Below the pieces are notes generated by a model, which saw only the letters and a program-made list of their open reading frames with translations, made no database searches and was not told the origin of the DNA. The position numbers and the translations under genes are program-made. Positions 7,765 through 54,882 of a stretch of 64,000 nucleotides of DNA are shown here, one piece after another. Origin of the DNA: Actinopolymorpha cephalotaxi (GTDB lineage: Bacteria; Actinomycetota; Actinomycetes; Propionibacteriales; Actinopolymorphaceae); the NCBI RefSeq assembly GCF_013408535.1, contig NZ_JACBZA010000001.1, positions 372,001 through 436,000 on the forward strand, read 5' to 3'. Each line of letters starts with the position of its first letter. The first letter of the stretch is position 1.

Positions 7765-7780
7765 GCAGTGCGTACGTACG

Positions 7781-10259
<2,479 letters not shown>

Positions 10260-14149: not shown

Positions 14150-14926
14150 TCACGGCGCGGATCCGTAAGCCTGCTTGAGCACGTAGCCCGCGCCCCGCAT
14201 GGTGTGGATCATCGGCGCCCGTCCGGCATCGATCTTCTTGCGCAGGTAGGAGATGTAGAGCTCCACGACGTTGGCCTGGCCGCCGAAGTCGTAGCTCCAC
14301 ACCCGGTCCAGGATCTGCGCCTTGCTCAGCACCCGCCGCGGGTTGCGCATGAGATAGCGCAGCAACTCGAACTCCGTGGCGGTGAGGCTGACCAGATCAC
14401 CGCTCCGGCGTACCTCGTGGCTGTCCTCATCGAGAGTGAGATCGCCGACGACCAGCAGCGCGTCCTCACGGGTCGTCGTGGTGACCGTACGCCGCATCAA
14501 ACCGCGGAGCCGGGCCACGACCTCCTCCAGGCTGAACGGCTTGGTCACGTAGTCGTCGCCGCCGGCGGTCAGCCCGGCGATCCGGTCCTCGACCGCGTCC
14601 TTGGCGGTGAGGAAGAGTACGGGCACCCGCGGGTCCTCGCCCCGCATCCGGTGCAGCACCTCCAGGCCGTCCAGGTCGGGGAGCATCACGTCGAGCACCA
14701 CCGCGTCCGGCTGGAACTCCCGGGCGACGCGGACGCCCGCGCGACCGGCGTCGGCGGTGCGCACGTCCCAGCCCTCGTAGCGCAGCGCCATCGCCAGCAG
14801 GTCGGTGAGGGTCGGCTCGTCGTCGACGACCAGCACCCGGACGGGTCCGCCGTCGGCCCGGCGCAGTGCCGGTGAAGCCGGTGAGTGGGAGGAGTCCGGT
14901 CGGGTAGCCGAGGTCGTACGCGTCAT
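14150..14926 (-). CDS. OmpR-family response regulator
   Basis: 258 residues from the ATG at 14926. The receiver domain has the acidic pocket VLVVDDEPTL, phospho-acceptor Asp about 79 in VVLDVMLPDLDG, the conserved Thr in LFLTAKD and the Lys in VTKPFSLEE. The C-terminal winged helix has LTATEFELLRYLM and the ending RTMRGAGYVLK-like IHTMRGAGYVLKQ. It is the first gene of the cassette and should activate or repress the kinase and glycosyltransferase genes downstream. An N-terminal tail of about 28 Ser/Pro-rich residues precedes the receiver. Confidence 0.93.
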   Translation of the reverse strand: MTRTTSATRPDSSHSPASPALRRADGGPVRVLVVDDEPTLTDLLAMALRYEGWDVRTADAGRAGVRVAREFQPDAVVLDVMLPDLDGLEVLHRMRGEDPRVPVLFLTAKDAVEDRIAGLTAGGDDYVTKPFSLEEVVARLRGLMRRTVTTTTREDALLVVGDLTLDEDSHEVRRSGDLVSLTATEFELLRYLMRNPRRVLSKAQILDRVWSYDFGGQANVVELYISYLRKKIDAGRAPMIHTMRGAGYVLKQAYGSAP

Positions 14927-16667
<1,741 letters not shown>

Positions 16668-38732: not shown

Positions 38733-39545
38733 GTGCGACACGACGTACGCGGGTGGCTGGTGCCCCAACGGCCCGACCGGCCCGAGGTGGTCACCGATCC
38801 CCGCGAACGCCGCGGGCTGCTCGTCGAGGTGTTGCTCGTCTTCAGCGTCACGCTGGGACTGTCCGGGCTGCGCAGCCTGCTGTCGCTGCTCGACTCGCTG
38901 CTGAAGTCGGAGCCGCTGAGCAAGCAGTCGGTCGCGCTCAACGTCTCCCAGGCCGCGCAGCAGCTGATCGACTTCGCGCTGCAGCTCACCGGGGTCATTC
39001 AGCTGCTGGCGTGGGGCGGCCTCGGGGCGTACCTGCTGTGGCGTTCGGGCATCGGACCCCGGCTGGTCGGGCTCGGCATGGGCCGCTGGCCGCGCGACCT
39101 CGGCGCGGGTGCCGTGCTGGCCGCGGTGATCGGCATCCCGGGGCTCGGGCTGTACTTCCTCGCCCAGGCGCTCGGCCTCAACCTCAACGTGCAGCCGTCC
39201 ACCCTGGGCGAGCACTGGTGGCGTACGCCGGTGCTGATCCTGTCCGCGGCCGGGAACGCCTGGGCCGAGGAGGTGCTGGTCGTCGGCTACCTGCTCACCC
39301 GGCTGCGGCAGTTCGGGTGGGGGGAGAACTCCGGGCTGGTCGCGTCGGCGGTGCTGCGCGGGTCGTACCACCTTTACCAGGGGTTCGGCGGCTTCGTCGG
39401 CAACGTGATCATGGGGCTGATCTTCGGGCGGTTCTGGCAGCGCACCAACCGGCTGTGGCCGCTCGTCGTCGCGCACACCCTGCTGGACGTGGTGGCGTTC
39501 GTGGGGTACGCGCTGCTGCGCGGCCACGTGGGGTGGCTGCACTGA
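38733..39545 (+). CDS. CPBP-family intramembrane protease-like protein
   Basis: 270 residues, GTG start. Several hydrophobic segments and the three CPBP (Abi) motifs: WAEEVLVVGYLLTRL where EExxxR is expected, RGSYHLYQG (His) and VVAHTLLDVVAF (HxxxD). The Arg of the first motif is Val here, so catalysis is less certain. CPBP proteins process prenylated or membrane substrates, and some protect against bacteriocins. It starts 9 bp after the epimerase gene and converges on a small membrane gene. Confidence 0.8.
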   Translation: MRHDVRGWLVPQRPDRPEVVTDPRERRGLLVEVLLVFSVTLGLSGLRSLLSLLDSLLKSEPLSKQSVALNVSQAAQQLIDFALQLTGVIQLLAWGGLGAYLLWRSGIGPRLVGLGMGRWPRDLGAGAVLAAVIGIPGLGLYFLAQALGLNLNVQPSTLGEHWWRTPVLILSAAGNAWAEEVLVVGYLLTRLRQFGWGENSGLVASAVLRGSYHLYQGFGGFVGNVIMGLIFGRFWQRTNRLWPLVVAHTLLDVVAFVGYALLRGHVGWLH

Positions 39546-39563
39546 TCTTGCTTCGTCCGCGGC

Positions 39564-40049
39564 TCAGAGCAGCCCGGTGTGGTCCTGGTAGCACTGGCTG
39601 AACTTCATCTTGTCCTGGGTGTACGGAAGGCACGGCTGCGCCTGGTGGGACCAGAAGAAGCCGAGCGCGACGGTGAGGATCGCCAGCACCAGCCCGCCCG
39701 CGGCCGCCTTGCCGTTGGTGGCCCGGCCACGGTAGGCGCGGACCAGGCCGGTCACCGACAGTGCCAGGCCGAGGGCGGCGAGCAGGACCGCGCCGGTCCA
39801 GGCGACCAGCAGCGAGGCGAGGAAGGCCACACCGGCCAGCGCCAGCCCGATCCACCCGGACCGGTTGCGCGGCGGGCGCTGGGGCCGCGCCGGGGTGGCT
39901 TCGCCCGGGTCGTACAGATCGCGAGGATCGCGGGGTTCTCCGGAGTCGCGGGATTGTTCGGCGTCGCGAGGATCACCCGAATCGCGGGGGGCACCGGGGT
40001 CGCTGGGATCACCGGGGTCACGAGGGTCGCGCGGGTCGGCGGCGGTCAT
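39564..40049 (-). CDS. DUF4190-like small membrane protein with DP-rich N-terminus
   Basis: 161 residues from the ATG at 40049 (40058 possible). The first 55 residues are repeats of Asp-Pro/Arg-Asp-Pro (PRDPRDPGDPSDPG), encoded by repetitive DNA. Two membrane segments (IGLALAGVAFLASLLVAWTGA and GGLVLAILTVALGFFW) flank a small loop with RGRATNGKAAAG, as in DUF4190. The end has two Cys (QPCLPYTQDKMKFSQC). Function unknown. It is divergent from proS with about 50 bp between starts. Confidence 0.75.
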   Translation of the reverse strand: MTAADPRDPRDPGDPSDPGAPRDSGDPRDAEQSRDSGEPRDPRDLYDPGEATPARPQRPPRNRSGWIGLALAGVAFLASLLVAWTGAVLLAALGLALSVTGLVRAYRGRATNGKAAAGGLVLAILTVALGFFWSHQAQPCLPYTQDKMKFSQCYQDHTGLL

Positions 40050-40100
40050 GGAGGGCATTCTCGCTCGCACCGCCGTCCGGCGTCACACTAGTGTCGCCCC

Positions 40101-41513
40101 ATGAGCAGAGCAGCGGTGCTCACCTCCCAGGTGAGCGACTTTCCCCGGTGGTACCAGGACGTCGTGGCCAAGGCCCAGCTGGCTGACAACGGCCCCGTCC
40201 GCGGCACCATGGTCATCCGTCCGTACGGCTACGCCATCTGGGAGCGGATGCAGGCCGAGCTGGACGCCCGGATCAAGGACGCGGGCGCCCAGAACGCCTA
40301 CTTCCCGCTGTTCATCCCGGAGAGCTACCTCCAGCGCGAGGCCGAGCACGTCGAGGGGTTCAGCCCCGAGCTCGCCGTCGTCACCCACGCCGGTGGGAAG
40401 GATCTCGAGGAGCCGCTCGTCGTCCGGCCCACGAGCGAGACCGTCATCAACGAGTACCTCGCGAAGTGGGTGCAGAGCTACCGCGACCTGCCGCTGCTGA
40501 TCAACCAGTGGGCGAACGTCGTGCGCTGGGAGCTGCGGCCACGGCTGTTCCTGCGTACGACGGAGTTCCTGTGGCAGGAAGGCCACACGGTGCACGCCAC
40601 GCAGGCCGACGCGGCCGCCTTCGCGCGCCGCATCCTGCACGAGACGTACGCCGGGTTCATGACCGACGTGCTCGCGATCCCCGTCATCCCCGGCCTGAAG
40701 ACGCCGAAGGAACGCTTCGCCGGTGCCGCGCAGACGCTGACCTGCGAGGCGATGATGCGAGACGGCAAGGCCCTGCAGATGGGAACGAGTCACGAGCTGG
40801 GGCAGAACTTCGCCCGGGCGTTCGACATCCGCTTCCTCGACGCCGAGGGGGAGCGGCCGTACGCCTGGACGACCTCCTGGGGCGCGTCCACGCGGATGGT
40901 GGGCGGGCTGATCATGACGCACGGCGACGACTCCGGCCTGCGGATCCCGCCGCGGCTCGCCGCCACCCAGGTCGTGGTGACCATGGTCAAGGCCGGTGAG
41001 GGTGTCGCGGAACTCGCGGCCGGGTTGGTGGCCGACCTGCGCGCCGCCGGCGTACGGGTCGCCCTGGACGACCAGGTGTCGGTGGCGTACGGGCGGCGGG
41101 CCGTCGACTGGGAGCTGAAGGGCGTCCCGGTGCGGATCGAGATCGGCCCGCGCGACGTGACCGCCGGCACGGTCACCGTGGTGCGGCGGATCCAGGGTAC
41201 GAAGACGCCGACGCCGGTCGCGGGTGTCGGCGCGGCGGTCGCGGAGGCGCTTTCCGTCGACCAGGCAGCATTGCTGCGGGAGGCGTCGGCGTTCCGCGAC
41301 TCGCGGACCGTCGACGTGGCGACGATCGACGAGGCCACCGAGGCGTCCGCTTCGGGCTGGGCGCGGATCCCGTGGTCGGCTCTCGGCGAGGAGGGCGAGG
41401 CCAGGCTGGCGGAGAGCGCGGTGACCGTACGCTGCCTGCTCCGCCCCGACGGGAGCGTGCCGGAGACCGAGAAGGAACCGGACCTGATCGCGATCGTCGG
41501 CCGGTCGTACTGA
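40101..41513 (+). CDS. proS: Prolyl-tRNA synthetase, eukaryote/archaeon-like type
   Basis: 470 residues. Class II motifs: motif 1 GTMVIRPYGYAIWERMQ region, motif 2 FLRTTEFLWQEGHTVHAT, motif 3 TSWGASTRMVGGLIMTHGDD. EEPLVVRPTSETVI and YFPLFIPESYLQREAEHVEGF are typical. There is no YbaK-type editing insertion between motifs 2 and 3, and the C-terminal extension matches the short type-3 ProRS. It charges tRNA-Pro in the cytoplasm. The downstream hairpin has a repeat array in its loop, then tRNA-Gln. Confidence 0.96.
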   Translation: MSRAAVLTSQVSDFPRWYQDVVAKAQLADNGPVRGTMVIRPYGYAIWERMQAELDARIKDAGAQNAYFPLFIPESYLQREAEHVEGFSPELAVVTHAGGKDLEEPLVVRPTSETVINEYLAKWVQSYRDLPLLINQWANVVRWELRPRLFLRTTEFLWQEGHTVHATQADAAAFARRILHETYAGFMTDVLAIPVIPGLKTPKERFAGAAQTLTCEAMMRDGKALQMGTSHELGQNFARAFDIRFLDAEGERPYAWTTSWGASTRMVGGLIMTHGDDSGLRIPPRLAATQVVVTMVKAGEGVAELAAGLVADLRAAGVRVALDDQVSVAYGRRAVDWELKGVPVRIEIGPRDVTAGTVTVVRRIQGTKTPTPVAGVGAAVAEALSVDQAALLREASAFRDSRTVDVATIDEATEASASGWARIPWSALGEEGEARLAESAVTVRCLLRPDGSVPETEKEPDLIAIVGRSY

Positions 41514-41517
41514 GGCA

Positions 41518-41622
41518 TCGGCCGGTCCGTACCCAGTCGTACCGCGTCGTAATGGGTCGTAATTGGCGTAATGGGTCGTAATGGGTCGTAATGGGTCGTA
41601 ATGGGTCGTACGGACCGGCCGA
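41518..41622 (+). repeat. Inverted repeat enclosing 10-bp tandem repeats (proS terminator region)
   Basis: A 15-bp arm at 41518-41532 pairs exactly with 41608-41622. The loop holds a direct array of TAATGGGTCG: one copy near 41550, a degenerate nine-base copy, then four perfect copies to 41610. The structure begins five bases after the proS stop. The stem may terminate proS; the array could expand or contract. Confidence 0.75.
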
Positions 41623-41679
41623 AACGCCCTCAACCGGGTGCGGGAGCCTGATCGGCTGCCGCGTAGGCTGTGGGCGCCT

Positions 41680-41750
41680 TGGGGTGTCGTCTAAGGGCAA
41701 GACCTCAGATTTTGGATCTGATGATGGGGGTTCGAGTCCTCCCACCCCAG
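41680..41750 (+). tRNA. trnQ: tRNA-Gln (anticodon TTG)
   Basis: Acceptor arms TGGGGTG (41680-41686) and CACCCCA (41743-41749) pair; G is the discriminator and CCA is encoded at 41751-41753. The anticodon stem TCAGA/TCTGA holds loop TTTTGGA with anticodon TTG, reading CAA. The T arm is GGGGG-TTCGAGT-CCTCC. The gene is intact. Its 3' half forms the left attachment site of the island. Confidence 0.95.
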
Positions 41751-41764
41751 CCACCCTCTGACCA
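41710..41764 (+). other. attL, left attachment site
   Basis: Starts in the tRNA-Gln anticodon loop and runs 14 bases past the gene. All 55 bases recur at 53707-53761. Beyond it similarity goes on with changes to about 41801 (GCGCTTTTGTCG and, 11 bases later, GTTCGCTG are shared), so the original duplication may have been about 95 bp. Confidence 0.92.
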
Positions 41765-41803
41765 GCGCTTTTGTCGCGCTGGATGCGGTTCGCTGACGAT
41801 CAG

Positions 41804-41822
41804 TGTCAATGGGAGTGTCAAT
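41804..41822 (+). promoter_or_regulatory. Pair of TGTCAAT motifs, candidate integrase arm sites (left)
   Basis: TGTCAAT at 41804-41810 and again at 41816-41822, start to start 12 bp, 40 bp inside attL. The same pair with the same spacing and orientation occurs near attR, which makes chance unlikely. Confidence 0.55.
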
Positions 41823-41837
41823 GAGTACACTCCGGAC

Positions 41838-42245
41838 ATGCCCACCGAGGCCGCTCCGAAGCGCCGCCAGCGCGGGTTCATACGGCGCCGCGGGAACTCA
41901 TATCAGGTGCTCGTCTACGCCGGCACGGACCCGTTGACGGGTAAGGACAGCTACCTCACCGAGTCGACAAAGGACGCTCGGGAGGCCGAGCGGATCCGCA
42001 CCCGGCTTCTCGCGCAGGTCGACCAGCAGCGCCAAGGGACGATCGACAGCCACCTGCACGCCCTGCGCCACTACTCTGCGACCGAGCTCATCACCGCCGG
42101 CGTCGACATTCGCACTGTCGCCGGCCGCCTCGGCCATGGTGGAGGCGGCACCACCACCCTGCGCGTCTACACTGCCTGGGTAGCCGAATCAGACAGACGT
42201 GCAGTCGAAATCCTCGCCGACCGGCTAATGCGCTCGGCTCCATAG
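41838..42245 (+). pseudogene. Tyrosine integrase remnant with the central part deleted
   Basis: 135 codons from ATG 41838, in frame throughout. Residues 1-65 are the N-terminal arm-binding region (RRGNSYQVLVYAGTDPLTGK, DAREAERIRTRLLAQVDQQRQ). They join directly to the C-terminal catalytic end SHLHALRHYSATELITAGVD, VAGRLGHGGGGTTTLRVYTAW, which keeps HxxR, GH and the nucleophile Tyr. Normal enzymes have some 250 residues between, including the core-binding domain and the first catalytic Arg, all lost here. It cannot be an active recombinase. Position beside attL is that of the element's own integrase. Confidence 0.88.
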
Positions 42246-42295: not shown

Positions 42296-45200
42296 TTACA
42301 CGGAGCCGCCCGGCCCATTTGCGTGAAGGAATTCTGCGCCAATTACAGTGATCAAGTCCGGCCGGATCCGCGCCAGAGCACGCAGGCAGGTGCTCCAATG
42401 CCCAATTACTAGCGCCTGCGCGAGGAGATGGTGTGACCTATCACTCGGGTAGTTCACTGCTAAATCGCTGAGAGTCTTTGAACGTTCTATCGGGTCGGTA
42501 ATCTCGGACGCAACTGTCTCGGAACGCTGCATATTTCCTTTACTCGCCCACCCTTGGGTTACCACCCCAAGGGCACGAGCACGCGAAGCTGGCGCTGCAA
42601 TGGAGAACACAATACGCTCGGCATCCGTCATTTCGCCCGAGGAAACCGCGACCTCTACAATGGAGGCCAACGTCTTCGCTCGCAATTGTCCGTCGGAGAT
42701 TCTCCGAGCAGTCCCCTCGGCGGACAGGATGTTTCCAGAGAGTGCTATTGCTGAGGCTATGGTGCTCAATGCTCGGTGGCGAAGTACAGGGTTGGAGATG
42801 GTAGCCGCAAGGCGCTCCGCCCTTTCTGACTCGCCGATTGCGACCAACTGGTGTAGGACTTCGTTCAGTGCGCTATCGCGATATGACCCCTGAGGGGTCA
42901 TATCCACCATAACCAACGCACGATCTACAAGTTCACGAGCAGCGTCTACATCTCCATTTGATGCCGAAGCACGTGAAAGCGTAGCCAGGGCTCTCACGCG
43001 GAGCACCGGGACAGAGATCGATTCAACCACTTTCGCGGCCTGCTCGATGTTCCGGTCGTGAACAAGTATTAGCGCGCGACCTACTAATCTCTCGGATAGT
43101 TCAAATGGCGTTAAAGAAGAGTCTGTCGGTGGGGCTATCGGCTCGTCTGCTGATGTCGCATCGTCGTCTGAATCTGTTACGCGGACGGTCTGCGCCGGCT
43201 GCGTATTTCCACCACTCCGGCCCGAATTTACGCGAGACGGTAGATAGAATGCCTTAGTTTTGTACGCCGGGTCTTCTATTAAGCCCGAGATTCGCTTCAC
43301 TTGCTCAATGTCCCCGACCCCAATTGCGACTTTTGCGACCAAAAACAACGCGACCGACTGCTGGGTAACATCAGAGACCGATTTGGCTACCTCCAGCGCT
43401 CGGTCGAGGTTACCGGCGCGTGCTACTGCCTCTGCCGTCGTAGTTAACGCACGATCCCGCCGTGGGACGTCAGAAATCGAATGCGCAAGATGGACAGCTT
43501 GCTCGATGTCTCCGACCGCTGCTGTGGCTTGTGCCAGTGCGGCCTGACCGACGGCAACTCGGCTCCCTCCGTCGAGCGATCTTGAGATGGCTTCAGCCTC
43601 ATTAGCAATTTGCTCAGCTGTATGCTTCTCGCCGGCCATAGCTACATTGGATGCAAGAACTGCAAGCGCTCTTGCGCGTCGGCGAAGGCTGGGAATATCA
43701 CGAACGAGCTCAGCGGCACGGTCTGGGACGCCACAAAGAGCTAGTACGCCGGCAATAGATGTTAAGGCGTCGGTCCTTTCGGATGCCTTCGGGGTGACAA
43801 GCGCTGCGGACTCGGCCTCACGCAGGATCTGCCAAGCTGCTTCCGGACCGTAAATGGATCGAACTTCGCGGGCGACAGCAGCAAGGATCCATGCTCGCCG
43901 CCCCGGATTTTGGATAGAGAATGCAAGACTTTGAGCTTCGGCAGCGATGCTATCTGCGCGACGACGAGCGCCAGATATTGACGCTGCTTTAGCGATGGTC
44001 GCTAGGGTATGGGCTCGATCGGCTCGGGGGCGTATTGAGCGGGAAATCGAGTATCCCCGTTTCCAGTTTCCTGACTCAGCTATTTCTAACGCGACGGCAC
44101 TAACGGCACCGGCACGCTCTGGTGAACGGTTGATCTCACCGGCCAACGCGAGCGCCTCTCCTATATTTCCGGTTGCTGCGACGGCGCGTGTCACAGCTCT
44201 GAATGCATCGGCTCGTTGGGGTCCGTTATCTAGCGCTTTAGCGGCAGTTAACGCTCGGCCAATTAAGGCTTGTGCATGGGGTATATCCCCAATCTTGGCG
44301 TACGCACGAGCGACGGCGGCATTGGCATGAGCCTGTTCCTCGCTGTCCGTGGAGGTGATTGCACGTAGCCCCTGCTCTGCCTGCTCCGCGACCGCTCGCG
44401 CGCGGTCCAACTCTCCGAGAGCATTCAACTCTTGCGCCACCGAAACCAAGGCTCGAACTTGGCGAATCGGAGTAGTGATGGAGCGTGCCAGGGCCTCGGC
44501 GCGGCTGTAGCGTCCCACCTGGGCCCAGACTACGGGAAGATTGACGGGCAGATGATCGTTACGCTCCGTAAGTCGAATTCGGTGGACGGCAACCCTGCCC
44601 AACGCGACAAGATCCGGAGAAGTTGTGCTCAGCAGCTGTTCCTGTGTGGCAAATATTTCGCTGAGCGCCGCGCTGTCACCGCCTATGATGTCGAGCATGC
44701 GGTTATGCCGATCAGGGTCCGTTACGCACTTCAGCATGCGTGGTGTGTCGGCCGTAGCCTGCAGGAGCCTGAAGTAGCCGCGTAGGGGATACTCAGGAGT
44801 GTTAGGTGGCCACTTGGCCGCTCGGTATCCTTCCACCCACTCGTGGATCCGTTCTCGGTATTCTTCCAGCCGCGTCTCTCCGAGGAATCGCAGTGCTTGT
44901 TGGTAAATTTCTTCGTGGCCGAGAACGTAGACGGGAACCTCCGCCTGCCATCGGCCCGCTCGGGAGTTGAAGGTGCGAGCAGATACGGCTTGAAGATGAT
45001 CCTGTATCTCCCATGCTGGCGCGTCCGTAAGCTGCGCCAAATCCCCCTCCGAGAGGCCGCCTCCTGCTGCTGTCAGGAGGCCAAGCAAGTCCTTCTCGAT
45101 GGCACTCCCACGAAGAAGTCTTTTGAGTTCCCGCTCTGCATCCTGCCGAACCACCGTGGCATATTCCGATCGACGCAATGATCGAACAATGTCTGCTTTC

Positions 45201-46657
45201 CGTAAAGGGTGACTATCAGGGACATCTGTCGGAATTGGGGGATTGGGGCGTCCGGCAACGATCACCCGCATCCCTGCTGGGGGGTTCTCGGGAAGAACTG
45301 CGGCGATGCTATGTGCGTCTGGGGAAGTAGTGACCCCGGAGTCCTCGTCGAGACCGTCCACTACCAAGATCAGGCGCTCTTCCCGACGCCTGCATAGGTT
45401 CGCGGCCCGCTCGAACGCATCTAGTAAGTGGGCCTCGCGGGTTGCTCCTGTCAATAGCACCGGCATAGGTTCGCCGAGTAGTTCTAGAAGTTGTTCGTGC
45501 ACGACTTCAATAAAAGCTGTTCGGTCCGCTTGCCCTGCCCAGCGTGCCGTAATGAAAAACGATACAACCCTCACGCCTTGCGGCGGATTCAAGGCGAAGC
45601 TCGACAGCAAGGCTGATTTCCCAGCCCACGCTTCGGCGCGCAACCAAAGATATGAGCTCGACTCGAGGGATGTGCAAAACCGTGTAAGCTCGGCCAGGTC
45701 GGTCTCCCTGGCGCGTAATTGCTGGGGCGCTATTCGCCGTACTTGGGAGAGGTACGCGGACCGTGCCAAAATTCTTGTTGGCCGCTGTTCGGTCGCGGTC
45801 TCTTGGTCATCGCTCGACGATCCTCCCACCAGAGAGTATCCGACCAAATCGCGGCGCAGAGATTCCATGTTCTTTGCGGCTGCATTTGGTGCGTACCTGC
45901 CGGCGAGTTCGCTCAGTCGACTAAATAGGCGATCGGCCGCAGCTGCTGTGCCAGCCGAGACGATTCCGCGGAGTCGAGCAACGCAAAATGAGCGGTCCGA
46001 TTCGTCAATGCCTTCAAGTCGGATTTCTCGAAGCGTAAGGGAAGTGAGAAGGCGCCAGGTCAGCTCAGAGTTTGGCAGCCTCTGAGTATCGATTCCCTCC
46101 GTCACTGCGGCTAGAGCGACAACCTTATCGATCTGTTGCAGTCTCTCCCTAGCTGTGCGGTTCAAGCGCCCGACGCGTCTGACCTCGGACCTGAAATGAT
46201 CTTCGCTTCCAGCGTCCCTAGCCATGGCAGCTAACTCTCGGAGCTGTCGTACGTGCTGGTTGGGGCTAGCGACAACCAACGCAAGTCGCCACCGGCCGGT
46301 GGCTATCTCGGCTGGATGATCGTGAATTACTCGAAGGTAGGAGCCGAGTAATTCGACCGAGGCGCGATCGCTTGGCACAAACGAAGGAGACCTGCGTACT
46401 CCGATCGATACCAGGCGGGGAGTGCCATCCGCTGAATATCCGCGCACTACCACGTCGTCGACGACGCTGTAGGAACTAGCTTGGAAGTGGATCTCGCGCG
46501 GGGTTACGTCGTCCCCAAGCTCGGGCAATGGGTCTGCAGTCAGCAGATGGCTCAACAGCAGTGCACCGTAACGATGCTCCAGGACGGTGCCTCCGCCGCC
46601 CGTTGAGTATGGGCTCGCGCGTCTCCTCTGGGGTCGAGCAGCGGAATGATCAGCCAC
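42296..46657 (-). CDS. Large STAND/NACHT NTPase with C-terminal helical repeats
   Basis: 1453 residues, GTG start, no good ribosome-binding site. Residues about 20-130 form an N-terminal domain (GGGGTVLEHRYGALLLSHLL, SSYSVVDDVVVRGYSADG, RLVSIGVRRSPSFVPSD) that recalls the PD-(D/E)xK-like domains heading several bacterial STAND proteins, but with SIGVRR where QVK-type catalytic residues would be. The NTPase core has a degenerate Walker A AEAWAGKS (about 341-348) and Walker B LILVVDGLDED (about 430-439), then MRVIVAGRPNPP. From about 740 to 1410 runs a long array of 33-37-residue TPR-like helical pairs (R..AL..IA.A.A..G...RA). Such receptors sense phage proteins; here that is inferred from build only. 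Confidence 0.75.
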   Translation of the reverse strand: MADHSAARPQRRRASPYSTGGGGTVLEHRYGALLLSHLLTADPLPELGDDVTPREIHFQASSYSVVDDVVVRGYSADGTPRLVSIGVRRSPSFVPSDRASVELLGSYLRVIHDHPAEIATGRWRLALVVASPNQHVRQLRELAAMARDAGSEDHFRSEVRRVGRLNRTARERLQQIDKVVALAAVTEGIDTQRLPNSELTWRLLTSLTLREIRLEGIDESDRSFCVARLRGIVSAGTAAAADRLFSRLSELAGRYAPNAAAKNMESLRRDLVGYSLVGGSSSDDQETATEQRPTRILARSAYLSQVRRIAPQQLRARETDLAELTRFCTSLESSSYLWLRAEAWAGKSALLSSFALNPPQGVRVVSFFITARWAGQADRTAFIEVVHEQLLELLGEPMPVLLTGATREAHLLDAFERAANLCRRREERLILVVDGLDEDSGVTTSPDAHSIAAVLPENPPAGMRVIVAGRPNPPIPTDVPDSHPLRKADIVRSLRRSEYATVVRQDAERELKRLLRGSAIEKDLLGLLTAAGGGLSEGDLAQLTDAPAWEIQDHLQAVSARTFNSRAGRWQAEVPVYVLGHEEIYQQALRFLGETRLEEYRERIHEWVEGYRAAKWPPNTPEYPLRGYFRLLQATADTPRMLKCVTDPDRHNRMLDIIGGDSAALSEIFATQEQLLSTTSPDLVALGRVAVHRIRLTERNDHLPVNLPVVWAQVGRYSRAEALARSITTPIRQVRALVSVAQELNALGELDRARAVAEQAEQGLRAITSTDSEEQAHANAAVARAYAKIGDIPHAQALIGRALTAAKALDNGPQRADAFRAVTRAVAATGNIGEALALAGEINRSPERAGAVSAVALEIAESGNWKRGYSISRSIRPRADRAHTLATIAKAASISGARRRADSIAAEAQSLAFSIQNPGRRAWILAAVAREVRSIYGPEAAWQILREAESAALVTPKASERTDALTSIAGVLALCGVPDRAAELVRDIPSLRRRARALAVLASNVAMAGEKHTAEQIANEAEAISRSLDGGSRVAVGQAALAQATAAVGDIEQAVHLAHSISDVPRRDRALTTTAEAVARAGNLDRALEVAKSVSDVTQQSVALFLVAKVAIGVGDIEQVKRISGLIEDPAYKTKAFYLPSRVNSGRSGGNTQPAQTVRVTDSDDDATSADEPIAPPTDSSLTPFELSERLVGRALILVHDRNIEQAAKVVESISVPVLRVRALATLSRASASNGDVDAARELVDRALVMVDMTPQGSYRDSALNEVLHQLVAIGESERAERLAATISNPVLRHRALSTIASAIALSGNILSAEGTARRISDGQLRAKTLASIVEVAVSSGEMTDAERIVFSIAAPASRARALGVVTQGWASKGNMQRSETVASEITDPIERSKTLSDLAVNYPSDRSHHLLAQALVIGHWSTCLRALARIRPDLITVIGAEFLHANGPGGSV

Positions 46658-46817: not shown

Positions 46818-47991
46818 TCAGGTCGGTTTAGATCCGCTCCCGCCAACGGTTGGTCCGGATGGCCAGGTGACTTCGAGTTCCTCTGGGCCATATGGGTTCT
46901 GGTAGAAGGACCGCAGGCAGTATTCGATCACGGGCTGCGCGGCGTTGGCGAGGTTGATGAACCAGTCGACGCCAGCCGGGTAGGACCAGAGGTAGGAGCG
47001 CGGGCTGCGGGTTCGAGCCGCGGTCAGTGAGGAAGTCGGAGATCTGGGCATCGGTCCAGTACGGCACGCGCTCGCGTGCGTGACGCACGCACTGGTCGAT
47101 GCTGGAGCCGGTGTTGATCGCGAGGTGTAGCTCGCCGCGGACGAGTTGGGTGTAGTGGTCAAGCCGCACCCGCGTCATCAGGAGCTGGTCGTCGGAGGCG
47201 ACGAACAGCGGCAGCGCCTGGGCGAGGCCTTCGAGGAGGACCTGCTGGTTGGCGTGGACGGACATGAGGCGGACCCAAGGCACGTCTTCAGCGGCGCAGC
47301 GCGCCGACCAACTGGCGCCCTGGAGCCCATGCCCGAGTACCTCGTGGAGAGCGAACTGTCTTGCGGCGACCTCGGTGAAGGTCGCTTGCCGAAGGTTGAG
47401 GCGTAGCCGGACGTCGGCGCCCACACCGTCCAGCCAGTACGCCCAGTACGCGTCGACGTCGGCGGTCTCAATGGTCAGGTTGAAAGGCGCGTCGGAGCCG
47501 GTCGCGCGGCGTACGGCCTTCTCGTAGGTGTCGGCGGCCGCGCGAATAGCATCCGGCGCGTCCGCTGTCTTCATGTGCCCTTCGAGTGCCCGGAACTCCT
47601 TGTCGGTGTTCGGCCCCCAACCGATCCCGACGTCAGCAAGCGCAGAACGAGCAAGCTCGCCGCGTTCCCTCACGTACTCGTCGGACCATCCCGCCGCGCC
47701 GCAGCCCTGCGTGGCGCGGATGTATTCGGCGAACGGTGGGCGCTCGCCGAGGAGGCTGCCGAGGTAGGCCAGGTCGGCGGTCAGGCGTGCGGATACGTGT
47801 GGCGTCTCGGCCTCGTCTGTGCGCTTACGGAGCGCCCGGAGTTGTTCGTAGACCTGAAGCCGGCTGGTCGCAGGCTCGATGGTCTCGGTCGTGGGGTGGC
47901 AGTCGAAGTCGATGACTGCGGGCGTGCCGCGGTTGACCTCGTAGGCGTTCCAGGCCCGAAGGACCGACTCAAGCTCGTCACGAAGCTTCAC
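46818..47991 (-). pseudogene. HExxxH metalloprotease-like gene with one frameshift
   Basis: A GTG at 47991 opens [23 protein letters not shown]. The middle has [12 protein letters not shown], an HExxxH zinc motif, and [13 protein letters not shown] 50 residues later with a possible third ligand Glu. The motif recalls DUF1704/MATCAP-type peptidases more than thermolysin (HExxH). At about 47010 the frame changes: one frame continues as unlike sequence to 46828, while the +1 frame gives [20 protein letters not shown] and a sensible end at 46818. One inserted base near 47008-47014 explains this. Substrate unknown. It follows argS and a strong hairpin on the same strand. Confidence 0.6.
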
Positions 47992-48005
47992 GGCGCAAGC
48001 GGCGT

Positions 48006-48086
48006 ACCCGGAACCTGCGCGGGGTCGCCAGGCCAAGCCGCGAGCGGTCGACAAGCGAGCCTGGCGACCCCGCGCAGAACCCGGGT
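48006..48086 (-). terminator. Long hairpin between argS and the metalloprotease-like gene
   Basis: 19 bases at 48015-48033 pair perfectly with 48059-48077; past a small internal loop (AAC/AAC) six more base pairs (48006-48011 with 48081-48086) extend it. It lies 67 bp beyond the argS stop and 15 bp before the next GTG. Probably the argS terminator. Confidence 0.6.
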
Positions 48087-48152
48087 GCGGACAAGCTGTC
48101 CGACCGACGGGAGATGAGCCCTCATCACGACCTGGTATCGGCTGGGTGCGCC

Positions 48153-49833
48153 TCACATCCGCTCGGGCGCGGACACTCCGAGCAGGCCAAGCCCGTTGGC
48201 CAGGACCGTCCGCGTGGCGGTGACCAGCAGCAGCCGGCCGCGATGAAGATCGGACAACTCCTCGTCGTCTTGCGGCAGTACCCGGCAGAGGTCGTAGAAC
48301 TTGTGGAACGCGGACGCGGTGTCCTCGAGGTAGCGGGCGACCCGGTGCGGCTCGCGCAGCTCCGCGGCGGTGGCCACTACGCGTGGGAACTCCGCGAGCG
48401 TCCGGAGCAGGATGCCTTCCTTCTCGTGGGACAGCAGCGACGGATCGAAGGTGTCGACAAGACCGGTGAGAGTGTCGGCCGAGATCCCAAGTTCGTCCGC
48501 GTTCCGCAGGATCGAGGACAGGCGTGCGTGGGCGTACTGCACGTAGTAGATCGGGTTGTCGTTGGTCTGTTTGGCCCACAGGTCCAGGTCGATGTCGATT
48601 GTGCTGTCGCAGCTGTATCGGGCCAGAGCGTAGCGAGCCGCGTCTACGCCGATCGCGTCGACGAGATCGTCGAGAGTGATCGCAGTGCCGGCGCGCTTCG
48701 ACATCCGCAGCGGTTGGCCGTGGGAGAGGAGGTTCACCATCTGTCCGATGAGGAACTCCAGGTTGACTCCCGGAGTGTCGCCGAACGCGGCACACACGGC
48801 GTTCATCCGCCCGACGTACCCGTGATGGTCCGCGCCCAGCATCATCAGGCACCGGTCGAAGCCACGTTCGCGCTTGTCGAGGTAGTACGCGACGTCGCCG
48901 GAGATGTAGGTGCCATTGCCGTCGGACTTGATGATCACCCGGTCCTTGTCGTCGCCGAACTTCGTGGTTCGCAACCACAACGCGCCGTCGTGTCGGTAGG
49001 TGTTGCCCATGCTGGAGAGCCCGGCTGATGGCCCGCTCGACGGCGCCGGAGTGGTGGAGACTGTTCTCGTGGAAGTACACGTCGAAATCGACGCCGAACT
49101 CGTGGAGCGTCTTCTTGATCTCGGCGAACATCAGCTCGACCCCGACCGACCGGAAGACTTCCTGCGCCTCGTCGTCGGGCAGTGTGAGGGTGTCGGGGTG
49201 TGTGGCGAGTACCTGCTGGGCGATGTCGACGATGTACTGGCCGGCGTAGCCGTCCTCGGGGGTGGCCGCGCCGCGGGCGCTGGCGAGTAGGGACCGGGCG
49301 AAGCGGTCGATCTGTCCGCCGTGGTCGTTGAAGTAGTACTCGCGGGTGACCTCTGCTCCGCTGAAGGAGAAGATCCGGCCCAGGGCGTCACCTACGGCTG
49401 CCCAGCGGGTACCGCCGAGGTGGATCGGCCCTGTCGGGTTGGCGGAGACGAACTCGAGGTTGATTCTCTCCCCGGCGTACATCCGGTTACGGCCGTACGA
49501 CGAGGCGGCGGTCACGATCTCCGCTGCGATGGCGCCCTGCGCGCCGGCATCGATGCGTACGTTCAGGAATCCCGGACCGGCGATCTCCACCGACGCGATC
49601 CCGTGCACCTCGCGGAGTCGGTCGGCCAGGAGCGCGGCGAGGTCGCGTGGCGGCATCCCCGCCTTCTTGGCCAGTTGGAGCGCGATGTTCGTGGCGTAGT
49701 CGCCATGCTCTCGGACCTTCGGTCGCTCGACGATGACCTGAGTAGGTACTCCGTCGGGCAGGGTCACCGTGCCGTCAGCAGTCAGACTCGCCAAGACGGC
49801 GACTACCGCGGACGAGAGCTGTTCTGAGGTCAC
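48153..49833 (-). pseudogene. argS: Arginyl-tRNA synthetase with a one-base frameshift
   Basis: From ATG 49833 the frame gives an N-terminal Add-1 domain ([20 protein letters not shown]) and the HIGH motif region [38 protein letters not shown]. At 49020-49022 an extra base in a GGG run (minus strand) shifts the frame; the second half (from 49010) reads [39 protein letters not shown] (KMSKS-like) and the standard end [10 protein letters not shown]. Removing one G restores an unbroken 560-residue class I ArgRS. Either the gene is newly broken or the base is a sequencing error. Housekeeping argS is usually elsewhere in actinobacteria, so this could be a second, element-borne copy. Confidence 0.8.
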
Positions 49834-50284: not shown

Positions 50285-52513
50285 ATGTGGTGGCGAAGAT
50301 GGTCGTGGCCGCGGCGGTTGGGGTGGACGCTGCTGATGGTGGCTTTACTGCTCTTGGCGGTGGGTCTTCCGGTACGGGCGTGGGGCGCGAGTGGCGATGA
50401 GTTCAACCGATGGGTGGGGTTGTCGAACGTCCTGGCTCTGAGTCTGGGCGTGGTCGGCTTCCTGCTGAACGTCGTCGATCGGCGCTGGCACGCCGATGAG
50501 GTGTTCGCGAAGCGCCTGGATCAAGCGGCCGACGAGCTAACCGACCAGGCGTTGAAGAAGGAGAGCCGCGCGTTGCGAGGGCTGCTCGCGGCGGGCCAGT
50601 CTGGCTCAGCGGCGGCGGATGTGAGGTTCGCAGAACGGCTGGTCGTCTTCGCCGAAGCGGGATCGGGGTGGTCAGGGCATCTGGGTGAGGTAGGACTGTT
50701 TTACCAAGACCATGCGACCGGTGGACGACTGGTGATCCTGGGTGATCCTGGGTCGGGTAAGACTGTGCTGGCGGTGCAGTTGCTCGTGCAAACCCTCGAG
50801 GCGCGGCAGGAACAGCCAGATGGTCAGACTCGGCGGCTGTTGCCAGTGCCGGTGCGGGCCAGCCTCCCGACCTGGAATGTGGACGTGCCCTTCGAAGAGT
50901 GGCTGACCCGTCGGCTGGTCGCCGACTACGGTATGCGGCGGCAGGAGGCGACGGCGCTGGTGGCGGCCCGGCGGGTACTTCCGATGCTGGACGGGCTAGA
51001 TGAAATGGACCCGCAGGATGGCGACCCGCAACGGGCACGGCGGGCTGTGGCACGGCTCAACGATGAGTACACCGCTGGTGAGCGCGGTGCACCGCTGGTG
51101 CTGACCTGCCGCAACGACGAATATCTCGCCTTAGGCCAGCCGGTCCGGCCCGCCACCGAGGTCGTCATCCAACCCCTGACGCCTGATCAAATCCGTGACT
51201 ACTTGCGTCTCGAGGTCGGCACGAGTGCGAGACCTGACACCTGGAAGGGCTGGCAGCTGCTACTGGACCAGTTGGACACCGACGTCGGCATCGAACTGTT
51301 ACACGCGTTGAACACCCCATGGCGGTTGACCCTCGCGGTCACCTACGGTCGGGCCAACGGACACCCGTCGAGCCTGCTCCGCCAGATCGACGCCAGCGGG
51401 GCCGAGGACTCCGACGCTTACCACAGCAGGGTCCGGAAGCTGCTGCTGGAGCAGTTCATCCCCACCCGGATCCGGGTGCTTGACTCCACCGCCAACACCG
51501 CCCAGATCACGGCGTGGCTGCGGACTGTGGCTCGGCACCTGGCCTGGCAGCAACAGCACGGCATGGCCGGCACCGACATCGTGCTGCACCAATGGTGGCA
51601 CATCGCCGGTTCACGGCGAGTACGCCGCTGGCACGCCTGTACCAACGTCGCGCTCTTAGTCGCTGGTTTCGCTGTGATCTTCTCGGCGTTCAGTAGATTC
51701 GATCCTCTCGCCGTGACAGACACCGTTCGGTACTACCTGAGCCCACTGTCCGTATTCTATTTCTTCTACATCTTGGTAGGCGCTTTTTTTGTGCTGGTCA
51801 TAACGGCCTGGTGTCAGTTGGCGTGGTCAACAGGTCACCAAGAAATGGTGAGGCCGAAGGGCGCCAGCCTGCAGCAACTACACACCCCCCAAGGCCGCCG
51901 CCGCCTCGCCAGGGAACTCCCGAGAAACCTAGCGGTTGGGTTCGGGTGTGGATTCGTACTCAGCGCGTTCGTGGTCGGGAGCTTGCCCAGCGAGGCCGCC
52001 CTCGTGGTCAGCCTCGCTGTCAGCTTCACGTTCGCGCTCACGTTCGCGCTCACGGCAGGGCTGACGCCGCTGGACGCGGCAGGTTTCAACCCGCGCGACG
52101 CATTGCGAAACGACCTAGTCAACTGGCTCGCGCTCTCGCTCGCGGCCGGGCTGTCACTGTTGCTGTCGCTGTCGCCCTGGCTCAAGGGTAGGGACTGGGG
52201 GATCGGGCTCTTATTTATAGCCGCATTCGGGTTCGTGATCACGTTAGGAGCCACGCTCACGAGTGGGCTCGCGGCCAATGCATGGCTGCGGTACGTACTC
52301 GCCCTCTGGCTCACGCGCCGCGAGGGGATCTTGCCACTTGGTTTCGGAAGGTTTCTCAACCGCTGCCACCAAGCCGGGATCCTGCGTGAGAGCGGAAACG
52401 CCTACCAGTTCCGCCACCTGGAACTACGCGACTGGCTCCAGCACCCACCCCAGCCCTCGTACCAAGCCGCATCCCCCAACACCCTGACTCCCACGGACAC
52501 GGCACAGAACTAG
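50285..52513 (+). CDS. Membrane-anchored NACHT-family NTPase
   Basis: 742 residues, ATG with GGGGGAG upstream. Two N-terminal membrane segments (about 13-33 and 45-63) are followed by a NACHT module: LVILGDPGSGKTVLAVQLL (Walker A about 153-160), VLPMLDGLDEMDP (Walker B about 231-243), VLTCRNDEY (sensor 1) and QPLTPDQIRDYLRL. A helical region (about 290-430) leads to five or six hydrophobic spans (about 450-660) and a C-terminal FLNRCHQAGILRE / YQFRHLELRDWL, the last part of the winged-helix region typical of streptomycete NACHT proteins. Bacterial NACHT proteins include antiphage effectors. A membrane effector would suit cell killing by permeabilisation; this is inferred. Confidence 0.82.
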   Translation: MWWRRWSWPRRLGWTLLMVALLLLAVGLPVRAWGASGDEFNRWVGLSNVLALSLGVVGFLLNVVDRRWHADEVFAKRLDQAADELTDQALKKESRALRGLLAAGQSGSAAADVRFAERLVVFAEAGSGWSGHLGEVGLFYQDHATGGRLVILGDPGSGKTVLAVQLLVQTLEARQEQPDGQTRRLLPVPVRASLPTWNVDVPFEEWLTRRLVADYGMRRQEATALVAARRVLPMLDGLDEMDPQDGDPQRARRAVARLNDEYTAGERGAPLVLTCRNDEYLALGQPVRPATEVVIQPLTPDQIRDYLRLEVGTSARPDTWKGWQLLLDQLDTDVGIELLHALNTPWRLTLAVTYGRANGHPSSLLRQIDASGAEDSDAYHSRVRKLLLEQFIPTRIRVLDSTANTAQITAWLRTVARHLAWQQQHGMAGTDIVLHQWWHIAGSRRVRRWHACTNVALLVAGFAVIFSAFSRFDPLAVTDTVRYYLSPLSVFYFFYILVGAFFVLVITAWCQLAWSTGHQEMVRPKGASLQQLHTPQGRRRLARELPRNLAVGFGCGFVLSAFVVGSLPSEAALVVSLAVSFTFALTFALTAGLTPLDAAGFNPRDALRNDLVNWLALSLAAGLSLLLSLSPWLKGRDWGIGLLFIAAFGFVITLGATLTSGLAANAWLRYVLALWLTRREGILPLGFGRFLNRCHQAGILRESGNAYQFRHLELRDWLQHPPQPSYQAASPNTLTPTDTAQN

Positions 52514-52686: not shown

Positions 52687-53331
52687 ATGCCTGAGTGGAG
52701 CGCCTTGGAACGTCGGAAGGCCAGCTTGCGACGCGCCCGCGACTTTGGGGATGGAGGCGGGCACGAATGGTCGACCGACGTGCAGTTCGCCCCCGGTCCT
52801 GAGCCTGGAACCGGCAAGATCCTCATCGGCAAACACCTACCGACGTGGGCGGAGGGGATGAGCTACCTGGACCTCAAACAGATCCCCGACTACTTCCTGC
52901 GCCCTGTGTGGTTCGCCGAGTGGTACAGCGACGATGGGCCTGAAATGGCCACCTGCCCGGTCAACCACCAGCGCGGCGTCTATGAGTGGGCCGCCCGCCA
53001 GCATGCCGCACGGGTGCTGGAATCAGTTCAGGGCGCGGTCGGTGAAGGCGGGCCGATCGAGCCGCCTGAAGCGGTCAACCGGGCACCTGACCCTGGCTGT
53101 GGGGTCTTAGAGATCCGATTCGACCAGGGCAAGCCTCAGTGGCAGGGGGTCTGGTACGACCTCTACGCGGGGCTGGCGATCTTCACCTCGGATGACCTAC
53201 GCGAAGTCGTGGACTGGGCGGTGAAGCAGCCCGCCGAAGCCAGGCTGTTCTTCGACGTGGGCAGGAATGAGGGAGTCGACCTGGAGACGTTCCGTGCCGA
53301 TCCGGGGCGCTACATCTACGAATACGACTGA
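52687..53331 (+). CDS. Hypothetical protein of the island
   Basis: 214 residues, ATG with GAGAG about ten bases upstream. No domain recognised. It has no membrane segment or signal; the N-terminus is basic (ALERRKASLRRARDFG), the middle is rich in Trp and aromatic residues (YFLRPVWFAEWYSDDG, QWQGVWYDLYAGLAIF) and the C-terminus is acidic (VDLETFRADPGRYIYEYD). Its place directly after the NACHT gene in the same direction makes it a candidate accessory, but a hairpin lies between them. Confidence 0.6.
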   Translation: MPEWSALERRKASLRRARDFGDGGGHEWSTDVQFAPGPEPGTGKILIGKHLPTWAEGMSYLDLKQIPDYFLRPVWFAEWYSDDGPEMATCPVNHQRGVYEWAARQHAARVLESVQGAVGEGGPIEPPEAVNRAPDPGCGVLEIRFDQGKPQWQGVWYDLYAGLAIFTSDDLREVVDWAVKQPAEARLFFDVGRNEGVDLETFRADPGRYIYEYD

Positions 53332-53593: not shown

Positions 53594-53612
53594 TGTCAAT
53601 GGCACTGTCAAT
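53594..53612 (+). promoter_or_regulatory. Pair of TGTCAAT motifs, candidate integrase arm sites (right)
   Basis: TGTCAAT at 53594-53600 and 53606-53612, same 12-bp period and orientation as at 41804-41822, about 95 bp inside attR. The bases between and after (GGCAC and GA) resemble the left pair (GGGAG and GA). Confidence 0.55.
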
Positions 53613-53706
53613 GAACTGCAGGCGCATGTGGCTCTGGATGACACCTCAGACAGCGCTTCGGCCAGAATCGCCGCAGGTCAGCAAGGGGCTGACGGTGATC
53701 ATCGCC

Positions 53707-53761
53707 TTTTGGATCTGATGATGGGGGTTCGAGTCCTCCCACCCCAGCCACCCTCTGACCA
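53707..53761 (+). other. attR, right attachment site
   Basis: Exact 55-base copy of 41710-41764, starting within the tRNA-Gln anticodon loop sequence. It lacks the 5' part of the tRNA, so it is not a gene. It marks the chromosome junction of the element. The 365 bp between the last island gene and this site hold only a hairpin and the arm-like motifs. Confidence 0.92.
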
Positions 53762-53896
53762 AGCGCTTTTGTCGTGGTCGACCCAGTTCGCTGCCGATCG
53801 TCTGGGCCTCTACGCATGACCACGCCACGAGCCGGCGTACGGAATATCTGGCGGCAACATGGGCTGTAGGAGGAGACCGCTACGAGAGGAGATCCA

Positions 53897-54817
53897 ATGC
53901 GCGCGGTGGTCTATGACGAGTACAGCTCGGACCCGAGCACCCTGGTTGCGCGAGAGCTTCCCACCCCGAAGCTGTTTCCCGGCTCGGTTCTGGTCGAGGT
54001 GCGTGCCGCCGGCGTGAACCCGGTCGACTGGAAGGCGATGTCGGGCGGTCTCGACGGGCTGATCGACGCTGTCTTCCCGGTGATCCCCGGTTGGGACGTC
54101 GCGGGGGTCGTGGTCGGTCTGGGCATGGACACGCCGGAGTTTCAGATCGGCGACGAGGTGATCGCCTAGGCCCGTAAGGACGTGCTGAGCGGTGGATCCT
54201 TCGCCGAGCAGATGGCGATTCCGGTGCACGCGGTGGCTCGTAAGCCCGCCTCGCTCACCTGGGAACAGGCGGCGGGTCTGCCACTGGCTGGGGGCACCGC
54301 GCTACGAACGCTCGACGCGCTGGAAGTGGAGGCCGGCCAGACGCTTTTGGTGCACGCGGCCGCCGGTGGGGTCGGCGGCTTCGCCGTGCAGATCGCCCGG
54401 GCTCGCGGTGCACGAGTGATCGGCACCGCCTCCGAACGCAACCACGCCTACCTGCGCGAACTCGGTGCGGAGCCGGTCGCCTACGGCGAGGGTCTGGCCG
54501 ATCGGGTCCGGGAACTGGCTCCGGACGGAGTCGATGCGGTGGCAGACTTCGTCGGAGGTCAGCTCGAGGTGACGCTGTCGGTGCTGAAGTCGGGCGGGCG
54601 CCACGCCTCGGTCACCGATGGGGAGGTCGAGGCCCATGGAGGCCGGTTGATCTGGGTGCGTCCGGACGGTGCCGAAACCGCGCGGCTGGCCGCGCTGGCG
54701 GACGAGGGGCACCTCACCGTCGAGGTCGGGGCGACCTACGGTCTGGACGAGGTTGCGGAAGCCTTCAAGGTCAGCCAGGGCGGGCACTCTCGGGGCAAGC
54801 TCATCGTGGTTCCGTAG
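53897..54817 (+). pseudogene. Zinc-type alcohol dehydrogenase / quinone oxidoreductase with an in-frame stop
   Basis: ATG 53897 opens MRAVVYDEYSSDPSTLVARE, EVRAAGVNPVDWKAMSG and GWDVAGVVVGLG, then GDEVIA is followed by TAG at 54166-54168 instead of the Tyr codon that relatives have in GDEVIAYARKD. The same frame continues with ARKDVLSGGSFAEQM, TLLVHAAAGGVGGFAVQIARARG (NADPH fold) and SRGKLIVVP at the end. It is a normal 306-codon medium-chain reductase except for that amber codon. Unless suppressed, the product is a 90-residue fragment. Confidence 0.88.
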
Positions 54818-54882
54818 GTTGGCTGCGCAGAACTGCTCGGGCCCGCCAGCAGCTGGTGCCAAGGTGGCGGCGCTCAGCCCGG

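Follow-up and report, generated by a model that had tools for sequence, protein, structure and literature searches.

A short integrase gene forms the left end of a 12.0-kb island in a tRNA-Gln gene within the window, the whole 64,000-nt stretch of DNA analyzed here. The features of the island, in window coordinates, are as follows.

41680–41753, forward strand: tRNA-Gln (TTG), the integration target (ARAGORN)
41710–41776: attL, made up of the tRNA-Gln 3′ part and bases downstream of it, of which 41710–41763 are identical to attR (54/54 bases; repeat comparison)
41804–41823, forward strand: left candidate arm-site pair, TGTCAATG-GGAG-TGTCAATG, which begins 75 bp downstream of where the tRNA T-loop motif begins
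41838–42245, forward strand: short integrase ORF, 135 aa (translation, Pfam, homologue matches)
41838–42041, forward strand: N-terminal domain of arm-binding type, residues 1–68 (alignment A1; three strands and a helix predicted)
42041..42042: deletion join, with an uncertainty of ~1 nt; 831–891 nt are gone relative to congeneric full-length relatives (homologue comparison)
42042–42242, forward strand: C-terminal remnant with H74xxR77, G99H100 and Y111 (Pfam PF00589, alignment A1)
42296–46657, reverse strand: cargo, 1453-aa STAND NTPase/TPR protein (PADLOC STAND_TPR, E 4e-124; Pfam NPHP3_N)
46828–49833, reverse strand: cargo, arginyl-tRNA synthetase-like sequence over two frames, within a 1001-aa open frame (Pfam)
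50285–52513, forward strand: cargo, 742-aa NACHT-domain protein (Pfam)
52687–53331, forward strand: cargo, 214-aa ORF without a Pfam or PADLOC match
53594–53613, forward strand: right candidate arm-site pair, TGTCAATG-GCAC-TGTCAATG, whose start precedes the attR T-loop motif by 132 bp
53707–53774: attR, where the 3′ part of tRNA-Gln recurs at the distal island end (repeat comparison)

Similarity between the two att copies continues imperfectly beyond the 54 identical bases. In one congener (G001) the site is empty: window positions 39142–41801 and 53707–54823 match one continuous stretch, with an overlap that corresponds to the att repeat. Because both flanks are continuous there, the 12.0 kb between the att copies represent an insertion. 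A search of the genome that carries the island gave only these two copies of the att sequence. The synthetase-like cargo has its N-terminal domain in one frame and its DALR domain (48153–49010) in another, and Pfam gave nothing at E ≤ 0.1 for 19 other island ORFs of at least 100 aa. Across the five main cargo frames and these 19 ORFs, Pfam recognized no relaxase, FtsK-like or T4SS family, nor did it find another recombinase among island ORFs of at least 100 aa. Likewise, a tblastn search with a full-length homologue over contig positions 412000–428500 (L151) returned only the core-deleted gene. Outside the island, a short tandem repeat (taatgggtcg) occupies window positions 41550–41610, between an ORF that we named by eye as prolyl-tRNA synthetase-like and tRNA-Gln.

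The short ORF joins the two ends of a full-length integrase. Its translation is a single uninterrupted frame of 135 residues, of which residues 1–68 correspond to the N terminus and 69–135 to the C terminus of full-length homologues. The two ends are those of an actinobacterial tRNA-targeting tyrosine integrase, whose last 67 residues are fused here in frame to its N-terminal domain. Homology to the integrase family is evident from PF00589 (Phage_integrase), to which residues 63–113 align at model positions 123–167 of 172 (E 6e-8, 33.1 bits against a cut-off of 27.1). An earlier note on this DNA had claimed an in-frame fusion of integrase ends without the core, and the open frame, the two-part match and the distance of 0 nt between the parts bear this out. 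The same note had pointed to the HxxR, GH and Tyr of the C-terminal end; all are indeed retained (H74, R77, H100 and Y111), although the remaining catalytic residues are lost. Active tyrosine recombinases have an RKHRH catalytic pentad and a Tyr, plus a core-binding domain. In alignment A1 the entire core-binding region falls in the gap of the short form, together with the motifs TGARRGE and KDTKTHQ, which we take to be the catalytic Arg-I and Lys of integrases. The SAM-like domain PF14659 matches 44/47 members of alignment A2 (the short form plus 46/78 relatives with an open frame, without any broken genes) and does not match the short form. No recombination is expected from a protein that lacks the core-binding domain, Arg-I and Lys, and judged by its residues the short protein should be inactive as a recombinase.

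Two further features were seen in the full-length relatives. Within their core-binding region, several Cys and His residues are conserved (C129, C133, H142, H148, C150, C183, H186 and C188; A1 columns 129–188) and look like a metal-binding insertion. In addition, a GntR winged-helix model matches 29/47 A2 members in the same open frame (for example, L066:3948–5552 and L077:3942–5759), in a position C-terminal to the catalytic domain when the consensus is read by eye. In those parts of the literature that were accessible, GntR proteins of AICEs do appear, and we found no integrase–GntR fusion.

The extent of the missing segment was measured against relatives. A full-length paralogue in the same genome adjoins tRNA-Thr (open frame of 463 aa; ORF of 454 aa from the first start codon) and matches residues 6–70 of the short form at 68% identity and residues 69–133 at 80%. 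Between these two parts it has 831 nt that are absent from the window. Among 95 distinct homologous loci containing both parts, 94 have them 783–936 nt apart (median 834), compared with 0 in the window; the remaining locus, a Pseudonocardia MAG (L130), has them 239 nt apart and out of frame. This count excludes single-part rows (7 with only the N part and 8 with only the C part, some of them duplicates of one place). Relative to congeneric genes the loss amounts to 831 nt (own tRNA-Thr paralogue), 843 nt (A. rutila and A. alba) or 891 nt (A. pittospori), and it is 831–936 nt relative to all open relatives whose N-domain is at least 60% identical. The congeneric comparison thus gives 277–297 missing codons, more than the roughly 250 residues claimed earlier. 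All these measurements refer to integrases of other tRNA genes because a full-length copy at tRNA-Gln was not found.

In L013, the relative with the most similar N part, the segment missing from the window is bordered by ...CAGCGCCAGGCGACGACC... on the left and ...CTGGGCATCGACAGC... on the right, and the window reads CAGCGCCAAGGGACG|ATCGACAGC across the join. The inferred homology is ~1 nt, a single base that, judged from homologues, can be assigned to either side. Short repeats, which the earlier note had suggested looking for, are not seen at the join, and with homologues as the only reference a repeat-mediated deletion finds no support. The lack of a repeat could instead point to a recombinant of two integrase genes or to an assembly product, rather than a simple deletion in this lineage; so could the failure to find a full-length ancestor at tRNA-Gln, and so could the fact that the closest relatives differ by part (L013 and L012 for N, L056 for C). 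However, L013, L012 and L056 all share 60% or more N-domain identity with the short form, which places both parts in a single subfamily. Moreover, the genome is a single 6.86-Mb contig, the frame is preserved across the join, and the gap has the length of the middle that relatives retain. We regard an origin by recombination or misassembly as highly improbable.

The short form does not appear to represent a family. The earlier note had reasoned that the same short architecture in many genomes would mark a normal small family. Among matches listed from samples of 57, 391 and 394 genomes, no second match spans residues 1–135 (the samples overlap; E cut-offs were 1e-15, 1e-20 and 1e-18, and the last two took the best 10 first-look candidates per genome). 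A contig scan from exact back-translated peptides, one spanning the join, yielded 79 loci, none covering the whole query, and among 36 pattern matches in viral contigs there was no relative. With the whole-length match limited to the window among the matches listed, we reject the family explanation. A second short form, in G685, adjoins tRNA-Leu and consists of an in-frame 169-aa ORF with matched residues 12–125. It has a longer N part, including more of the start of the core-binding region, joined to 'AGVDLRTT...' without HxxR, at breakpoints that differ from those in the window. Among 8 genomes of its genus, a full match to a 121-aa stretch of it occurs in its own genome alone. We reject it as a member of the same family and treat it as a separate in-frame form with a different join. 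That two of three short forms (window and G685, not L130) remain in frame is uninformative because one in three deletions is expected to keep the frame. Two loci that match from residue ~29–35 to the C terminus (L022 and L110) were rejected as short forms: each has a separate N part 807–831 nt away, which makes them full-length genes. G599 gives a partial match of the same kind and has an open frame of 461 aa.

The tRNA-Gln site varies among congeners. In stretches of 6.6–18 kb from five of them (G001–G005), we found no full-length integrase of this family at tRNA-Gln. Besides the empty site in G001, such an integrase is missing from G003 and G005 (where the contig ends ~4.4 kb past the tRNA), and A. 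rutila (G004) has a 44-residue remnant of an integrase N part. G002 carries a block of ~5.1 kb at tRNA-Gln (L148 9612–14760) without an integrase of this family, the last 71 bp of which show 83% similarity to the attR region of the window.

Structure prediction gave an N-terminal and a C-terminal unit. AlphaFold2 gave the short form a mean pLDDT of 83 and a pTM of 0.46, the latter a value that suits two units without fixed packing. The predicted N part comprises strands at residues 13–18, 21–30 and 37–44 and a helix at 47–66, with a block at residues 11–60 that has pLDDT of 86–94; the predicted C part comprises helices at 69–86, 91–98 and 105–132. Arm-binding N-domains such as those of Tn916 Int and lambda Int comprise a three-stranded sheet and a helix, and searches with the predicted model brought up no clear counterpart. 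Foldseek returned 453 matches at E ≤ 10 and 0 at E ≤ 0.001. The top VIA-align row was TrpR (Z 5.8, residues 67–121), and the best for the N part was 6d7k (Z 5.0, residues 8–70); further rows included XerH for the C part (Z 4.0–4.2) and several dsRBDs over residues ~6–67 (Z 3.5–3.9). No arm-binding domain entry was among the VIA-align rows shown, and no Pfam arm-binding model matched the short form at E ≤ 1. We draw no evidence from these searches.

Candidate arm sites lie at both ends of the island. The two pairs (TGTCAATG-N4-TGTCAATG) share orientation, and the left one ends 14 bp before the integrase start codon. Single GTGTCAATG copies with at most one mismatch occur 9 times in the window, compared with 7.6 expected by chance; what stands out from background is the pair, not the single copy. 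In the same genome, the pattern TGTCAATGN{3,6}TGTCRATG occurs at 5 places on the forward strand and at 0 on the reverse, with 0 for a reversed control. Across 57 genomes, TGTCAATGN{3,6}TGTCAATG has 20 sites in 7 genomes, and control sites number 0. Among 22 distinct pair sites (L152–L173 and the window), 7 lie 73–87 bp after a tRNA T-loop motif and 10 lie 132–135 bp before one; these 17 flanked sites are spread over six genomes, and for the other 5/22 the motif is absent within 300 bp. Related elements at Gln, Thr, Lys and Met tRNA sequences have their ends marked by such pairs, and a pair of this type also accompanies the full-length paralogue at tRNA-Thr.

Presence of the pair follows the N-domain. 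When one mismatch per half and a period of 10–14 were allowed, a pair was found upstream of the integrase in 9/13 loci with an N part of 60% or higher identity to the short form and in 1/80 below this value (n = 93 distinct loci), counts that come from related loci and do not represent independent events. The lone low-identity locus (L026) has a frame-shifted N part, and degenerate versions of the pair are visible by eye in the four high-identity loci without one (L012, L013, L046 and L057). Among 300 scrambled motifs the mean was 0.027 loci and the maximum was 1 of 93. By position, pairing and co-variation, the TGTCAATG pairs appear to be arm sites of this N-domain. Together they amount to an apparent arm-site code, with one pair 73–87 bp after the T-loop motif on the integrase side and one 132–135 bp before its far-end copy, that tracks one N-domain subtype although the catalytic domain remains similar. 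Such a code could be used to find the ends of elements, including islands with a dead integrase.

No decay is seen in the retained sequence. In A2, 43 columns reach 90% agreement or more, and the short form has 0 departures from them, as do 14 other members. These unchanged columns are equally explained by a recent deletion or by a maintained short protein. The absence of decay in what is retained counts against the reading of a disabled integrase. Together with the attR copy, which serves no tRNA and is unchanged over 54 bases, the 43 intact positions make the events look recent. Low dN/dS was found against relatives: comparison of the window with L013 gave 0.112/0.863 for the N part and 0.050/1.098 for the C part, similar to pairs of full-length genes. 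These ratios would also fit a short protein that is maintained, and they are not decisive because the sites are too few and mostly reflect history before the deletion.

With a complete N-domain, no departures at conserved columns and candidate pairs at both island ends, the suggestion that the short protein might still bind arm DNA is reasonable, and from its sequence we consider such binding plausible. A further step would make it a working regulator that binds the TGTCAATG pairs, represses its own gene, blocks full-length integrases with the same arm sites and thereby locks the island. The confidently predicted fold of three strands and a helix, the 0/43 departures, the candidate sites just before the start codon and at the far end, and the same kind of pair at the tRNA-Thr paralogue speak for this role, and there is a precedent: according to the accessible part of PMC2951348, IntS represses its own promoter, which is overlapped by attL. 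Yet in that same partial text, mutation of single arm sites left repression by IntS intact, apart from one mutation that hits the −10 box and allows no judgement. Furthermore, the fused form was seen once among the matches listed from the genomes searched, the second short form is joined differently, and the C-terminal remnant has no obvious use. The earlier proposal of a regulator rather than debris found no positive support, with a form seen once and integrase genes broken in 17/95 two-part loci (13 by frameshift and 4 by a stop between the parts; several of these loci come from draft genomes or MAGs, and sequencing errors may inflate the count). We consider a regulatory role unlikely. Slightly less likely still is a core-deleted integrase kept as an arm-site competitor, which would occupy both pairs, silence the promoter and block excision or entry of related elements at other tRNA genes. 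In the literature searched, we found nothing on truncated arm-type tyrosine recombinases or on dominant-negative integrase N-domains acting in trans, and nothing on Actinopolymorpha integrases.

Very probably, a recent in-frame internal deletion disabled the integrase and left the island stranded in a CIME-like state with complete ends. One internal deletion of ~831–891 nt, with the frame kept by chance, would have disabled the integrase of the tRNA-Gln island. The island, with both att cores and both candidate arm pairs, would then be a stranded substrate, movable only by a compatible integrase from elsewhere. The lost middle, the island ends, the empty congener site and the candidate arm pairs are observed; from them we infer the deletion as the cause, its recency, the loss of catalysis and the need for help in movement.

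This reading has parallels in known decayed elements. As described in the available portion of PMC5704250, CIMEs are decayed ICEs or IMEs that keep attL and attR and are without integration and transfer genes. The island resembles them as far as that portion goes, with both att sites, a disabled integrase, cargo and no Pfam-recognized transfer gene among ORFs of at least 100 aa, but its integrase is internally deleted rather than removed, and a third att copy was not found in the genome. "CIME-like" is the fitting term, with ancestral transfer genes presumed and cis-mobilization putative. Decayed AICEs of Streptomyces with truncated integrases between direct repeats are reported in the accessible text of PMC9513070. 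The island shares with the cases that this text covers the remains of cargo and a truncated integrase, enclosed by direct repeats at a location where relatives have an empty site (PMC9513070). In contrast, site and host differ, the integrase has lost an internal segment without a change of frame, and none of the island ORFs scanned gave a recognizable AICE gene for replication or transfer.

The ancestral integrase in turn resembles recombinases with arm-binding domains, whose role and domain scheme are set out in the part of PMC8138268 that could be consulted; the lambda Int N-domain is treated in PMC4880445, also available in part. Like the phage and ICE recombinases of the former source, as far as it was accessible, the window gene has a homologous N-domain and catalytic C terminus, with arm-like repeats around the att core (PMC8138268); unlike them, it is without the core-binding domain, Arg-I and Lys. 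IntS of prophage KplE1 likewise has attL arm sites at the start of its integrase gene, downstream of a tRNA, in the available sections of PMC2951348. By the same sections, however, IntS is active as an integrase and its autoregulation has been measured, whereas regulation by the window short form is only conceivable (PMC2951348).

As a decayed integrase the short ORF is ordinary, and the arm-site code is its useful by-product. Decay is also seen in relatives. The tRNA-Thr paralogue (L009 6257–7621; G000:C1 ~6822.3–6823.6 kb) has 5/43 departures at the conserved columns, one of them an R-to-P change two positions ahead of GH, and may itself be failing. In the stretches of A. pittospori that were covered (L174–L177) there are four N-part remnants without a C part, three of which follow the beginning of an arm pair at a distance of 230–260 bp, in what looks like an accretion of decayed elements. 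Separately, the genome that carries the island has a further integrase fragment: in L010, a 454-bp stretch from the C terminus of the tRNA-Arg integrase (7765–8218) is repeated 6.8 kb downstream (14530–14983) at 97% identity.
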